Shown in pieces: positions 2,173 through 52,838 of a DNA stretch of 64,000 bases. The stretch is from Ferrimonas kyonanensis DSM 18153 (GTDB lineage Bacteria; Pseudomonadota; Gammaproteobacteria; Enterobacterales; Shewanellaceae). The notes below the pieces were generated by a model. That model was not told the origin of the DNA. It searched no databases and saw only the letters and a list, made by a program, of their open reading frames with translations. Both the position numbers and the translations under genes were made by a program. The DNA lies in assembly GCF_000425405.1 (NCBI RefSeq), contig NZ_AUDJ01000011.1, positions 62,001 to 126,000 of the forward strand, written 5' to 3'. The stretch's first letter is position 1; each line of letters starts with the position of its first letter.

Positions 2173-3732
2173 TCAGCGCCGACACAGGCGTTTCAGCAGC
2201 AGAATCACCAGCACCAGCCCCAGGGTGGCGGTGGCAAATCCGGCCATGACCGACCCGGTCATCCCCAGTACCAGGTAACCGGCCAGCGAGATCAGTGCGG
2301 TCAGCACCGCATAGGGCAACTGAGTAGTAACATGATCAATGTGGTGGCATCCGGCACCGGTGGAGGACAGGATGGTGGTGTCGGAGATCGGCGAACAGTG
2401 ATCGCCGAACACCGCACCGGCCAGTACCGAAGACAGCATCGGCAGCATCAGTGCCAGATCCACCGCTTCGGCCATGTTGGCAGCAATGGGCAGCATGATG
2501 GCAAAGGTGCCCCAACTGGTGCCGGTGGCAAAGGCGGCAAAGCCACTGAGCAAAAACAGCAACGCCGGCAATCCCCAGGCAGGCAGGTTACCCTGGGCCA
2601 GAGTCGCCATGAATTCGCCGGTCTTCATGTCGCTGATCACCCCGGCAATGGTCCAGGCAAACAGCAGAATGTAGATAGCCGGTAGCATCGATTTGATGCC
2701 ACTGATCACCGCCTTACTGATGTAGGCCGCCGGCACCCCCTGGCGCAAACCGAACAGCAGGGTAAAGCCGACCCCGGCCAGGCCAGAGTAGAACAGGGAC
2801 CAGGCGACATCGGTGTTTTCAAAGGCACCGATAAGGGAGAACGCCTTGTCGTCCGCCGCCAAGACCTGGTTGCCGGAAAACAACATCAAAGAAACCGTTA
2901 TCGCAATCAGGAAACCGATGGGGGCCACCAGGCCGGCGACCCGGCCATTGTTGGCCTCGGGCAGGTCCAGCTCTTCACCGGCAGGCACCCCTTTGGCTTC
3001 GTCCCACAGTTGACCGCGCTGAGCTCGCTGCTCGGCGTCCGCCATGGCGCCGAAATCCAGGCCGAAATAGACCACCGCCAGTAACAGGGCAAAGGCAAAG
3101 ATGGCATAGAAGTTCATCGGTACCATCTGCATAAAGGCACTCAGGTAACCGATGTCGGTCATGCCATGGGTGGTGAGCAAGCCCCCGATCAGGGCGATGA
3201 TGTACGCGCCCCAGGAGGAGATCGGTGAGATCACGCAGATGGGCGCCGAGGTGGAGTCGATGCAGTAGGCCAGCTTTTCCCGCGACACCTGATAGTGATC
3301 GGTCACCGGCCTGGCCACCGAGCCCACCACCAGAGTGTTGAAGTAGTCATCGATGAAGATCACCACCCCCAGTGCCATGGTCATCAACTTGGCATCGCGG
3401 CCGCAGCGGATGCGGTGACGGGCCCAATCGGCGAAAGCACGGGTCGCCCCGGAGACCGAAATCAGCGCAGTCATCACCCCCAGTAACACCAGAAAACCGA
3501 GCGTGTAGAGATTCCAGCTGTTGAGGGCGCCGTCATCCCAAACCAGAGAGACGGCACGGGAACCGAGCTCGGAAGCGCCATCAACCACAGAGAAATCCAC
3601 CAGCATCAGGATGCCAATGGCAATGCCTAACCCCAGGGACAGCAGAACTTTTCGGCTGGCGATTGCCATGCCAATGGCCACCACGGGGGGCAGCAGGGAG
3701 AGTGCCGAATCGGCGTAACTAATTAAAGCCAT
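2173..3732 (-). CDS. NhaC-superfamily transporter, predicted lysine transporter
   Basis: A polytopic inner-membrane protein of about 519 residues with some 12 hydrophobic segments and the NhaC-superfamily pattern (FIDDYFNTLVVGSVARP near residue 145, then STSAPICVISPISSWGAY). By fold alone it would be called a Na+/H+ antiporter. The leader changes this: a lysine riboswitch lies directly upstream (3877-4016). Riboswitch-controlled NhaC-type genes were predicted by comparative genomics to be lysine transporters (called LysW in that work), so lysine uptake or efflux coupled to Na+ is the best inference. The start is uncertain: ATG at 3732 is chosen, with in-frame GTG 3774 and TTG 3780 also open; none has a strong SD. 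The gene is monocistronic. Confidence 0.85.
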   Translation of the reverse strand: MALISYADSALSLLPPVVAIGMAIASRKVLLSLGLGIAIGILMLVDFSVVDGASELGSRAVSLVWDDGALNSWNLYTLGFLVLLGVMTALISVSGATRAFADWARHRIRCGRDAKLMTMALGVVIFIDDYFNTLVVGSVARPVTDHYQVSREKLAYCIDSTSAPICVISPISSWGAYIIALIGGLLTTHGMTDIGYLSAFMQMVPMNFYAIFAFALLLAVVYFGLDFGAMADAEQRAQRGQLWDEAKGVPAGEELDLPEANNGRVAGLVAPIGFLIAITVSLMLFSGNQVLAADDKAFSLIGAFENTDVAWSLFYSGLAGVGFTLLFGLRQGVPAAYISKAVISGIKSMLPAIYILLFAWTIAGVISDMKTGEFMATLAQGNLPAWGLPALLFLLSGFAAFATGTSWGTFAIMLPIAANMAEAVDLALMLPMLSSVLAGAVFGDHCSPISDTTILSSTGAGCHHIDHVTTQLPYAVLTALISLAGYLVLGMTGSVMAGFATATLGLVLVILLLKRLCRR

Positions 3733-3833
3733 CGTAATGTTATCGTCATTATTAGCGATGGAGGCAACTGACACGGCCAAAGCCGCGGGGGACTAGCAAA
3801 AAGCGAGAGATCCACCTTCCATTCAGTAGCGCT

Positions 3834-3878
3834 CCATAGTAAATCATCTTCCCAACATCCGGTTGGAATTTACTATGG
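3834..3878 (-). promoter_or_regulatory. Expression-platform hairpin of the lysine riboswitch
   Basis: A perfect 11-bp inverted repeat (CCATAGTAAAT at 3868-3878 on the minus strand, pairing with 3834-3844) contains an inner CCAAC/GTTGG stem. Its 5' arm starts inside the last two bases of the 3' strand of the aptamer P1 helix, so the two structures compete at their border. There is no T tract behind it, and a GGAAGGTGG sequence lies just downstream at 3812-3820. I infer a translational or folding switch rather than a simple terminator. Confidence 0.55.
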
Positions 3879-4016
3879 CAGTGTTACTCCTGTTAGAAGT
3901 AACCCCAGCGCGCAGGGATGATGCCCGGCACACTTCGGCATCGACTCCTTTGGGCCGGCGTCGTCGGGTATCAACCTCGACCGGCTTACTGATAGGCGAT
4001 GCGCCTCTACCTTATC
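3877..4016 (-). promoter_or_regulatory. Lysine riboswitch (L box) aptamer
   Basis: On the minus strand the leader shows the conserved lysine-aptamer elements in order: the P1 5' strand and loop-E region GGTAGAGGCGC (from 4011), ATCAGTAAGCC, the strongly conserved GGAGTCGATGCCGAAG block, a P5 hairpin with arms GTTACTTC/GGAGTAAC, and the P1 3' strand CTGCC (3877-3881) that pairs with GGTAG. The order and blocks match the known lysC leaders of E. coli and B. subtilis as I remember them. A small 6-bp hairpin (4022-4039) precedes the aptamer. It controls the NhaC-type transporter gene downstream. Confidence 0.88.
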
Positions 4017-4093
4017 GGTACTCGCATACGAAGATGCGAAGGCGGCATTCTAACTGCAAGTGCCCCTCACTTGACCAGCAGATGCCGCCATAT

Positions 4094-4109
4094 TGTGAGT
4101 TATATCACA
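4094..4109 (-). promoter_or_regulatory. CRP-binding site and promoter of the riboswitch-transporter unit
   Basis: The 16-bp sequence is TGTGA-N6-TCACA with both half sites perfect, the core of the CRP consensus. A TAGAAT -10 box sits on the minus strand at 4047-4052. The start site implied by it (about 4040) puts the CRP centre (4101.5) near -61.5, the classical class I activating position. The -10 assignment is tentative because the same bases can pair with the aptamer end. Confidence 0.6.
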
Positions 4110-4110
4110 G

Positions 4111-5037
4111 TTATAACAGTTCTGTGAGCTTAGGGACAGCGTCAAACAGATCCGCTTCCAGTCCATAATCGGCCACCTGGAAAATCGGCGCATCCGGGTC
4201 CTTGTTGATCGCCACGATCACCTTGGACTCCTTCATGCCGGCCAGGTGTTGAATGGCACCGGAGATGCCCACCGCGATGTACAGATCCGGGGCGACAATT
4301 TTACCGGTTTGTCCCACCTGCAAATCGTTGGCTACGTAGCCCGCATCCACCGCCGCCCGAGAGGCACCGATGGCTCCACCGAGCTTGTCGGCCAGAGCTT
4401 CGATCAAAGCAAAGTTCTCGCCGCTGCCCAAACCGCGGCCGCCGGAGATCACCACCCGTGCGGCGCCAAGCTCAGGACGCTCAGACTGCACCAGCTCTTC
4501 GCCGACAAACTGGCTGAGGCCGCTGTCCTTGACGCTGGACACCGTCTCGATGTCTGCCGCCGCCTGAGTGGCTACGGCATCGAACGCGCTGGTTCGAATG
4601 GTCAGCACCTTGATGGCATCCAGGCTTTGTACCGTTGCCAGGGCATTACCGGCATAAATCGGGCGCACAAAGGTGTCTTCTGACTCAATGGCAATAACAT
4701 CGGAGTGCTGAGCCACGTCCAGCAATGCCGCCGCCCGCGGCAGCACGTCTTTGCCCTTGGCACTGGCTGCGGCCAGGATGTGGCTGTAGCCACCGGCCAG
4801 CTCCAGCACCAGGTCGGCGACCGGTTCTGCCAGCTGATGGGCATACCCATCGTGATCCGCCAGCAACACCTTGGTGACGCCAGCCAGTTGTGCCGCCTGA
4901 TTGGCGGCCTCGGCCACGCCGCTGCCGGCGACCAATACATGAATCTCCTGACCCAGTTGAGTGGCCGCACCCACGACTTTGGCACACTCGGCACCCAGGC
5001 CCTGTTTGTCCAGCTCTGCAATAATGAGGATCGCCAT
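4111..5037 (-). CDS. etfA: Electron transfer flavoprotein alpha subunit
   Basis: The FAD-binding subunit of ETF, which carries electrons from acyl-CoA dehydrogenases to ETF:quinone oxidoreductase. The 308-residue protein has the usual two parts: an N-terminal nucleotide-binding-like domain to about residue 185 and a C-terminal FAD domain with GGRGLGSGENF near 199-209 and the ETF-alpha signature PDLYIAVGISGAIQHLAGMK near 250-270, then NKDPDAPIF. Its ATG overlaps the etfB stop as TAATG, so the two are translationally coupled. Regulation probably follows the LiuR-like operator upstream of etfB, linking the pair to branched-chain amino acid and fatty acid breakdown. Confidence 0.95.
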   Translation of the reverse strand: MAILIIAELDKQGLGAECAKVVGAATQLGQEIHVLVAGSGVAEAANQAAQLAGVTKVLLADHDGYAHQLAEPVADLVLELAGGYSHILAAASAKGKDVLPRAAALLDVAQHSDVIAIESEDTFVRPIYAGNALATVQSLDAIKVLTIRTSAFDAVATQAAADIETVSSVKDSGLSQFVGEELVQSERPELGAARVVISGGRGLGSGENFALIEALADKLGGAIGASRAAVDAGYVANDLQVGQTGKIVAPDLYIAVGISGAIQHLAGMKESKVIVAINKDPDAPIFQVADYGLEADLFDAVPKLTELL

Positions 5038-5786
5038 TAGACCACCTTCGCTTCGTTTTTCAGCTTCTCAACCAGCTCTTCAACCGAGCCCACCATGATG
5101 CCGCCACTGCGTTCCGCCGGGGCCGTTACCTTTATTACCTGTTGGTGGGATTTCAACTGCAACTCGAAATCCGCCACTGTAACGGTGTCCAGTGGTTTGC
5201 GCTTGGCCTTCATAATATTCGGCAGCGACGCATAGCGCGGTTCATTCAGGCGCAGATCTGCAGACACAACGGCAGGCAGTTTGACACTCAGGGTTTGAAT
5301 GCCGCCATCGATCTCCCGGGCAACGGTGACTTGATCGCCTTCGACCTCAATGCTGGAGGCAAAGGTTGCCTGCCCCATGCCTGCCAGTGCCGCCGTCATC
5401 TGCGCGGTCTGGTTGTTGTCGCCATCGATGGATTGCTTACCAAACAGCACCAAATCGGGTTGCTCCTTTTCAACAACCGCTTTTAACACCTTGGCAATCG
5501 AGATGGGCGCCAACTCTTCATCGTGCTCCACCAGAATCCCGCGATCGGCGCCCAAGGCCATGGCCGTACGCAATTGCTCCTGGGCCACTTTAGGACCGAT
5601 TGATACCGCAATAATCTCATCGGCCTGGCCTTTTTCCTTTAGCCTTACCGCTTCCTCGACGGCGATCTCGCAGAAGGGGTTGATCGCCATCTTCAGGTTG
5701 GCCAGTTCCACCGCTGACTCATCAGCAGCGACTCTCACCTTCACATAGGGATCGACCACCCGCTTGATCGGAACCAGAATCTTCAT
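5037..5786 (-). CDS. etfB: Electron transfer flavoprotein beta subunit
   Basis: The partner of EtfA; the heterodimer binds FAD and AMP and accepts electrons from several flavin dehydrogenases in the cytoplasm. The 249-residue protein starts [19 protein letters not shown], typical of the family, and carries the beta signature around residues 165-200 ([20 protein letters not shown], then DLRLNEPRY). The SD AAAGGACG lies 5-12 bases before the ATG at 5786. First gene of the etfB-etfA operon, with a 1-base stop/start overlap. Length and gene order are normal. Confidence 0.95.
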
Positions 5787-40726: not shown

Positions 40727-40834
40727 GATATTCCTCAATAATAGTTCGGGGTTAAGCCTCCACGCATCCCATGACCCGACCCCGAGGGGCACCCCGGACC
40801 ATGTGCCGATACGTGTGTGGTTTAATAACAAATT
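40727..40834 (-). promoter_or_regulatory. rpsB leader, possible S2 autoregulatory element
   Basis: The roughly 108-nt leader starts below a TATTAT -10 box (40841-40846) and contains a GC-rich folded part (GGGGTGCCCCTCGGGG with flanking CATG/CATG) and GGCTTAACCCCG just before the SD. In E. coli the corresponding rpsB leader (t44 RNA) binds S2 and represses translation. The general layout fits; I could not check a covariance model. Confidence 0.4.
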
Positions 40835-40996
40835 AACGATATAATAGACGCCATTGTTCGCGTGGCGACCCGCAGGCCATTCAGCCCGGGTTCCATCACG
40901 ACTCAACAGAGCCGGCGCGCTTTATACCATACTGAGCAGCAAAGCTCAACTTAAGTGTGTGCCACGCCACCGAGTTTTCGATAGAAGAGTAGACCA

Positions 40997-44451: not shown

Positions 44452-45276
44452 ATGACCGAGTTGCAACAACGTATCGAGGCCGCCTTCGAACAGCGCGCCG
44501 ACATCACCCCAGCCAATGCCGATGCCGGCCTGGTGAACGATGTCAAAATCGCCCTGGAGATGCTGGATAAAGGCCAGGCACGGGTTGCAGAAAAACGGGA
44601 CGGTCAGTGGGTGGTCAATGAGTGGCTGAAAAAAGCGGTGCTGCTGTCATTCCGTCTGTTCGACAACCAGGTGATGGAGGGCGGTGAGACCCGCTACTTC
44701 GACAAGGTACCGATGAAATTTGCCGACTATGATGACGCCCGTTTCCGCGAAGAGAGCATTCGTGTGGTGCCGCCGGCCACCGTACGCCAGGGAGCCTTCA
44801 TCGGCCGCAACACCGTGCTGATGCCCTCCTACGTCAACATCGGCGCCTACGTCGACTCCGGCACCATGGTGGATACCTGGGCCACCGTTGGCTCCTGTGC
44901 CCAGATTGGTAAGAACGTGCACCTGTCCGGTGGCGTCGGCATCGGCGGCGTTCTGGAGCCGCTGCAGGCCAGCCCTACCATCATCGAGGACAACTGCTTC
45001 ATCGGCGCCCGTTCCGAAGTGGTGGAAGGGGTGATTGTCGAGGAAGGTTCGGTGATCTCCATGGGCGTGTACCTGGGGCAGAGCACCCGCATCTACGACC
45101 GTGAGACCGGCGAAGTGCATTACGGCCGGGTTCCGGCTGGCTCGGTAGTGGTGTCTGGCACCCTGCCCTCCTCCGACGGCTCATGCAACCTGTACGCCGC
45201 CATCATCGTCAAGAAGGTGGACGCCAAGACCCGCAGCAAAGTGGGCATCAACGAACTGCTTCGCAGCGCCGAATAA
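44452..45276 (+). CDS. dapD: 2,3,4,5-tetrahydropyridine-2,6-dicarboxylate N-succinyltransferase
   Basis: The succinylation step of lysine and meso-diaminopimelate synthesis. The 274-residue protein has the N-terminal helical domain, a left-handed beta-helix ([58 protein letters not shown]), and the C-terminal domain ([20 protein letters not shown]). Last gene of map-glnD-dapD. Its pathway ends in lysine, which is also sensed by the riboswitch at about 4 kb, a functional link only. Confidence 0.97.
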
Positions 45277-52469: not shown

Positions 52470-52472
52470 GCA

Positions 52473-52838
52473 GAAATAGAACGGGGCGCCACGAGTGCGC
52501 CCCTAGATATTACACGCTAAGCAATCCTGCTATAATTGGTGCTCCCTGCATCATCCTTGCGTACTGCTGCTTCCTGCGGTCTTCCTTGCGCTGATCCTTC
52601 AGCTTCCTTGTACTACTGTACTGTCGTCCTTAACACGATAACATCCTGTTATCGAACTCATCTCCATCCTGGAGGTGTCCTGATCCATCCATGGGAATCT
52701 GCAATCCTGGCAGAGTAAGCGCCCTTCTCAAGTCTCACCATCCTAGTGATGTCTGATCCGTTTGCTTTCACCGAACTCGTGTATGGCAACCTCCTGTCAC
52801 GCATCACTAATTCAGTTCCTAGCCGTTTCCCTTGGCAC
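52473..52838 (-). ncRNA. csrB: CsrB-family sRNA that sequesters CsrA
   Basis: A regulatory RNA of about 366 nt on the minus strand, close to the 369 nt of E. coli CsrB. It contains 20 GGA motifs, many in hairpin loops, for example GATAACAGGATGTTATC (52635-52651 region) with a perfect CsrA consensus ACAGGATGT, CTCCAGGATGGAG, CACTAGGATGGTG and GCAAGGATGATGC. The block GGACACCTCCAGGATGGAGA matches E. coli CsrB as I recall it. The 3' end has a GGGGCGC/GCGCCCC hairpin (52483-52503) followed by a T-rich tail. By binding CsrA it should release translation of CsrA-repressed mRNAs. No convincing protein-coding frame exists in this stretch. Confidence 0.92.

Follow-up and report, generated by a model that had tools for sequence, protein, structure and literature searches.

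Which substrate does a transporter carry when its family name says sodium/proton antiport and its mRNA appears to sense lysine, and how is its synthesis controlled? This question is raised by a gene of Ferrimonas kyonanensis DSM 18153 that we call lysW, after a predicted lysine transporter gene under riboswitch control whose first prediction reportedly dates from 2003. An earlier note, made from the letters of the DNA, had stacked a CRP site, a lysine riboswitch and a switch hairpin in front of this gene. We followed up these claims within a window of 64,000 nucleotides (contig NZ_AUDJ01000011.1, positions 62,001 to 126,000 of the forward strand; all positions below count from the first letter of this window) and in leaders of related genes. 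The reading that we consider probable is that lysW encodes a lysine importer whose control region takes two inputs, a CRP-dependent promoter being followed by a lysine riboswitch that acts through a switch at the start codon.

The features of the leader and its surroundings are collected in Table 1. A single base separates the CRP core from the stop codon of etfA (last base 4111). As the beginning of the transporter gene we use the conserved ATG at 3732; the TTG at 3780, which a mechanical list of open reading frames gives as the start, was rejected. The small hairpin at the predicted transcript start shows changes on both sides of its stem among relatives (judged by eye and uncounted). Two further RNAs above their gathering scores lie on the minus strand of the window, namely a t44 RNA before rpsB (40751-40837) and a CsrB/RsmB RNA (52472-52768).

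Table 1. Features of the lysW leader and neighbouring genes (window positions)
Feature	Position	Strand	Remark
etfB	5037-5786		ahead of etfA
etfA (electron transfer flavoprotein alpha)	4111-5037	-	upstream neighbour of the lysW leader
CRP core TGTGATATAACTCACA	4094-4109	-	centre 4101.5; perfect TGTGA-N6-TCACA
Imperfect inverted repeat	4041-4091	-	arms 4091-4082 / 4048-4041; predicted -10 within 3' arm
Predicted -10, TAGAAT	4047-4052	-	41 nt past the CRP core
Predicted transcript start	~4040	-	
Small 5' hairpin, CGCAT-loop-ATGCG	4023-4038	-	at predicted transcript start
Lysine riboswitch aptamer (RF00168), full length	3819-4017	-	117.2 bits, E 1.2e-30
Aptamer helix P5	3834-3878	-	arms 3878-3868 CCATAGTAAAT / 3844-3834 ATTTACTATGG; 11 bp
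Switching strand X ATGGAGCGCTACTGA	3823-3837	-	P5 foot, core joint and P1 3' strand
Hairpin H2	3772-3787	-	between X and Y; 6 pairs, 4 with changes on both sides
Switching strand Y TCAGTTGCCTCCAT	3758-3771	-	partner of X (ON)
CCATCG	3761-3756	-	overlaps end of Y; partner of start-codon CGATGG (OFF)
CGATGG	3729-3734	-	contains start codon ATG (3732-3730); partner of CCATCG (OFF)
lysW, NhaC-superfamily transporter gene	2173-3732	-	519 aa; conserved start ATG 3732

The lysine aptamer that the earlier note had claimed was borne out by a covariance-model search. RF00168 gave a significant full-length match on the minus strand (model positions 1-182) at 3819-4017, with a score far above the gathering score of 30 (Table 1). 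By the measure of this model, the predicted lysW mRNA begins with a lysine riboswitch. The 11-bp hairpin in the same leader had been described as an additional switch element with its base in the P1 helix. The stem does exist, and in the RF00168 alignment it is the aptamer's own helix P5. Since four unpaired bases (AGCG) lie between this stem and the 3' strand of P1, the hairpin is not based in P1, and we rejected a separate third control element. The last four bases of the stem (ATGG) form part of the proposed switching strand X. The match before lysW is the sole RF00168 match in the window, and dapD (44452-45276, plus strand; TIGR00965, 487.5 bits) was therefore correctly described as a lysine synthesis gene with no lysine leader. 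Another lysine riboswitch of the same genome precedes lysC on contig C7 (RF00168, 78.1 bits).

As to the substrate, LysW contains a PF03553 domain (274.9 bits against 23), and this domain is named for a Na+/H+ antiporter family. The gene might accordingly encode an antiporter for pH balance, with lysine acting only as a signal, for example of lysine decarboxylation, and not as the substrate; a suggested pH role is also reported in the part of PMC5584792 available to us. Three observations make this explanation decidedly unlikely. First, the NhaC equivalog model TIGR00931 scores LysW at 43 bits, far below its cut-off of 370. Second, the Na+/H+ antiporter label, which the earlier note had expected from the fold, holds for the family name but not for the predicted fold, which is that of elevator-type solute carriers: the AlphaFold model of LysW (pLDDT 88.2) matches MleN best (TM 0.61), followed at TM values of about 0.4-0.5 or below by sulfate, sialic-acid, dicarboxylate and similar carriers, whereas the Na+/H+ exchanger NHA2 gives a TM of 0.14. 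A sequence search of solved structures with LysW returned no match at E 0.001. Third, RF00168 lies directly upstream of the gene in 32 of the 38 named relatives that were scanned, out of 80 fetched (Gammaproteobacteria and Firmicutes by title), and this recurrence of the riboswitch before one transporter family points to its ligand as the substrate. With a cruder motif test, the riboswitch motif was found in 57 of all 80 fetched relatives. The nearest named relative is the F. sediminum protein (96%; the search may omit records of the own genome). In the F. kyonanensis genome itself, two of five scanned PF03553 loci have a lysine riboswitch, and a second riboswitch-led lysW copy (L011) is located on contig C11 (RF00168, 121.4 bits).

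The same comparison gives good support to the proposal that the gene product moves lysine, which also agrees with the name lysW in the literature (PMC5584792). The part of this source available to us presents lysW, a member of the NhaC superfamily (COG1757), as a gene under lysine-riboswitch control with predicted lysine transport; it is a published prediction, for which this part holds no transport assay that we could find. The gene is also named as a candidate in the part of PMC545781 that was consulted. Because lysine is predicted to switch lysW off, the gene product most likely imports lysine into the cell.

The best curated NCBIfam match of LysW is another family name, Tet(35) (NF000013), with 414.4 bits. 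This match raises the possibility of a drug exporter akin to Tet(35), although its score falls short of the cut-off of 750. In a class-wide sample, none of 369 genomes contained a gene above this cut-off. After this null result, sampling was moved to the order level (394 genomes), where the Tet(35) model found matches in 322 genomes, four of them over the cut-off. From 30 fetched loci (L199-L228, presumed Vibrio) we scanned 20, comprising the four over the cut-off and 16 lower-scoring ones. Every one of these 20 genes has an upstream lysine riboswitch on its own strand, and 16 are followed by a histidine-operon leader. Two named Vibrio relatives that score 671 and 658 bits with the Tet(35) model are riboswitch-led too. 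At four named Vibrio loci (L071, L072, L075 and L076) the gene is likewise riboswitch-led and followed by a histidine-operon leader in all four cases.

Since all 20 scanned genes are riboswitch-led, "Tet(35)" appears to be a family of lysine transporters, and the genes that bear this resistance name are likely to be lysine transporters. That the four genes over the cut-off are themselves riboswitch-led also argues against a drug exporter. A further argument comes from Vibrio of southern sea otters, where, in the part of PMC11921324 available to us, tet35 is described as ubiquitous, yet 62 tested isolates were susceptible to tetracycline; the authors explain this susceptibility by a weak pump or altered alleles. 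For LysW, drug export as the function is in our estimate highly improbable. The original Tet(35) may still export tetracycline; neither the riboswitches nor the susceptible isolates show the contrary. A broader proposal would be that the Tet(35) family consists of chromosomal lysine importers under lysine riboswitches, that resistance catalogues therefore count a housekeeping gene in Vibrio, and that the Ferrimonas and Shewanella members stand under a conserved AND-NOT gate of CRP and lysine. We hold this proposal to be evenly poised between right and wrong.

We then turn to the first of the two inputs. The perfect CRP core TGTGA-N6-TCACA that the earlier note had pointed out was confirmed and is the only one in the window, where shuffled sequences lead one to expect 0.08 (7 of 100 shuffles contain at least one). 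The 4.93-Mb genome contains this core at eight places, against one for a reversed control pattern, and it encodes a crp gene (NF008732, 399.3 bits against a cut-off of 266). For comparison within the genus, we took one lysW ortholog from each of 14 Ferrimonas genomes, selected on the basis of leader and N-terminus and with no use of a tree. Nine of these orthologs have the perfect ten-letter core, and the other five retain 9, 8, 8, 8 and 7 letters; all 14 cores are situated 95-110 nt ahead of the aptamer motif GTAGAGG. In 14,000 mononucleotide-shuffled upstream sequences the best core had ten letters once, nine in 35, eight in 643 and seven in 4,012 cases. Given the frequency of eight- and seven-letter cores among the shuffles, the score does not set four of the five worn cores apart, so that position alone would speak for them.

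Behind the core, the hexamer TAGAAT follows at exactly 41 nt in 10 of the 14 orthologs. The remaining four have TAGATG, TAGATA, TGAATG and TAGATT, so that a hexamer beginning with TAGA other than TAGAAT stands 41 nt past the core in three. This gap would centre CRP at -61.5 if the hexamer is the -10 element. No full sigma-70 promoter match and no -35 element were recognised in the leader of the window; the predicted -10 accordingly draws on conservation and spacing. The spacing to the predicted -10 would fit a class I CRP promoter, given a transcript start that is itself predicted. In genus g2 (presumed Shewanella), the best -10 match in 16 leaders is weak, with a mean of 3.69 of 6 letters at a gap of 40.

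Could the core instead form part of the etf operon's 3' end, or be a chance relic that does not drive lysW? It is found one base past the etfA stop, ahead of a terminator-like repeat, and it is worn in 5 of the 14 orthologs. The repeat 4041-4091 is perhaps the old etfBA terminator, in which case the -10 would be nested in the terminator of the upstream operon; at this place the 16 leaders of genus g2 have a GC-rich stem with a T-rich run behind it (pairs uncounted). However, the gap of 41 nt from core to -10 is kept in 10 of 14 orthologs while the intervening bases change. The second lysW copy of the same genome (L011), on contig C11, has a core of 9 out of 10 letters that likewise ends 41 nt before a TTAGAT, and three of six second-copy leaders are without a core. 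At the level of the family, 79 of 152 genomes contain GTGA-N6-TCAC with GTAGAGG 66-96 nt behind it. Of 89 hits to GTGA-N6-TCAC in this pattern, at least 70 (in 70 of the 152 genomes) run into an RF00168 match among the matches listed, and 19 do not. In view of this conservation, we regard a core that has nothing to do with lysW as unlikely.

A core in front of a lysine riboswitch is not peculiar to transport, which is one of the points in favour of a relic. By the same test, the core occurs in 12 of 27 lysW leaders and in 4 of 24 RF00168 leaders of other kinds; of these 24, 22 lie before lysC and two (L043 and L048) have no listed open reading frame. We therefore rejected the idea that the core is confined to transport genes. 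The four positive leaders (L039, L042, L044 and L047) all belong to Ferrimonas lysC and have a CRP-type core 40-115 nt before the riboswitch, an arrangement that joins CRP and riboswitch at a synthesis gene. The proposed dual setting of lysW by CRP and lysine is supported as far as the conservation of both sites goes. What CRP would report is a different matter, because the Crp regulon of Shewanella, of the same family, is described in the part of PMC3223726 available to us as one of anaerobic respiration and not of carbon catabolism. This makes "carbon state" uncertain as the physiological meaning of the CRP input at lysW.

How would lysine binding reach the gene? No intrinsic terminator was found on the gene strand between aptamer and lysW in the window, and the sole gene-strand terminator hit in the leader falls within the aptamer; an intrinsic terminator as expression platform was rejected on these grounds. 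By eye, no clear Shine-Dalgarno sequence was seen. We aligned 20 Ferrimonas lysW leaders (14 orthologs and six second copies) over the stretch between the end of P5 and the start codon. Leaders outside Ferrimonas were excluded from the ON, OFF and folding analyses, and one further riboswitch-led transporter (L036, genome G009), which has a different N-terminus and belongs to neither lysW group, was kept out of the counts.

The ON structure, in which X pairs with Y, has 95.7% of cells paired in the 20 leaders, and its main X-Y helix is formed in all of them. RNAalifold proposes this helix unprompted, and in covariation score the ON structure ranks above each of 500 shuffles and each of six slid versions. 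Four pairs of the structure change on both sides, and all four are in hairpin H2. By contrast, seven of the eight pairs of the main X-Y helix are invariant; the helix hardly varies because X is fixed by the aptamer. Support for the X-Y helix therefore comes from conservation more than from covariation. In the OFF structure (87.9% of cells paired), the start-codon segment C/A-GATGG is paired with CCATC-G/T. All 20 leaders form the first six pairs between Y and the start codon; the first five are invariant, while the sixth (105-130, adjoining the start codon) reads G-C in 12 rows and U-A in the other 8. Of the ten pairs in this helix, one changes on both sides, probably reflecting a small number of events, and two on the loop side are broken in 11 of 16 and in 15 of 17 rows with letters. 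An alternative pairing that connects the aptamer with gene output is thus present, mostly by conservation and with little covariation in X-Y.

Constrained folds, in which the ON state was forced to form the X-Y core and in the OFF state X was merely kept unpaired with the aptamer energy outside the model, gave mean unpaired probabilities of the start codon of 0.38 (ON) and 0.03 (OFF), with the lower value in OFF for all 20 leaders. The positions -12 to +3 were more open in ON in 17 leaders and less open in L007, L015 and L019. Some start codons stay mostly paired even in ON (unpaired 0.04 in L007 and 0.15 in L016), and L021 has an OFF value of 0.33. From the conserved, partly covarying pairs and the constrained folding we infer that the lysW riboswitch is a translational OFF switch. 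Since X is required for the aptamer core, binding of lysine should free Y.

Instead of masking the start codon, the riboswitch might work through transcription termination (Rho-dependent or intrinsic) or, as in E. coli lysC, through access of RNase E. The part of PMC5584792 available to us describes control of gammaproteobacterial lysC by RNase E, and the aptamer is followed by five consecutive T residues in the window and in L033, L019 and L021. Such T runs are missing at that place in the other 16 of the 20 leaders, no intrinsic terminator was found between aptamer and gene in the window, and the conserved pairing reaches into the start codon. We find this alternative doubtful as the main mechanism; RNase E or Rho could act on the lysW leader as well.

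A switch at the start codon would operate as follows. From conserved sequence and spacing, a CRP-dependent promoter, with CRP at about -61.5 and the -10 at 4052-4047, is predicted to make the lysW mRNA. When lysine is scarce, X would pair with the downstream strand Y, the start codon would be freer and the transporter would be made. When lysine is bound, X would be held in the aptamer and Y released, so that CCATCG could pair with CGATGG and translation would stop. The leader would then place two signals in series, a global regulator bound to DNA and an RNA switch that senses the amino acid directly, in a conserved layout that can be tested with simple reporter fusions.

The pairing of this riboswitch with this transporter is already known from the part of PMC5584792 available to us. 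Three elements may be new, since we did not meet them in the literature searched, some of it consulted in part: the conserved layout around the CRP site, the switch at the start codon, and the link to Tet(35). The last of these has a practical side: the riboswitch makes it most likely that a tetracycline-resistance determinant which annotation pipelines list in Vibrio is a transporter of lysine. If true, this would help to explain the susceptible isolates in which tet35 is ubiquitous (PMC11921324, as far as it was available to us).

Compared with known systems, the predicted fold of LysW is closest, among solved entries, to MleN (PDB 9a59, an integrative model; TM 0.61), with which it shares 13% identity and whose substrate we take to be malate/lactate. 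The Tet(35) model NF000013 fits the protein best among curated models and has riboswitch-led members as well, but its name stands for tetracycline efflux. The published lysW (PMC5584792, in the part available to us) has the same riboswitch class and the same transporter family as the Ferrimonas gene, and some Shewanella have two riboswitch-led copies per genome, as does the Ferrimonas genome; CRP and a start-codon switch, both of which we propose here, are not mentioned in the parts of PMC5584792 and PMC545781 that were consulted. The gammaproteobacterial lysC riboswitch has the same aptamer class, and differs in that lysC serves synthesis whereas Ferrimonas lysW serves transport. Finally, the E. 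coli lac promoter has a class I CRP site with 41 nt from core to -10 and CRP at -61.5. The putative lysW promoter is like it in this spacing, and differs from it in having no recognised -35 element and in leading into a riboswitch.
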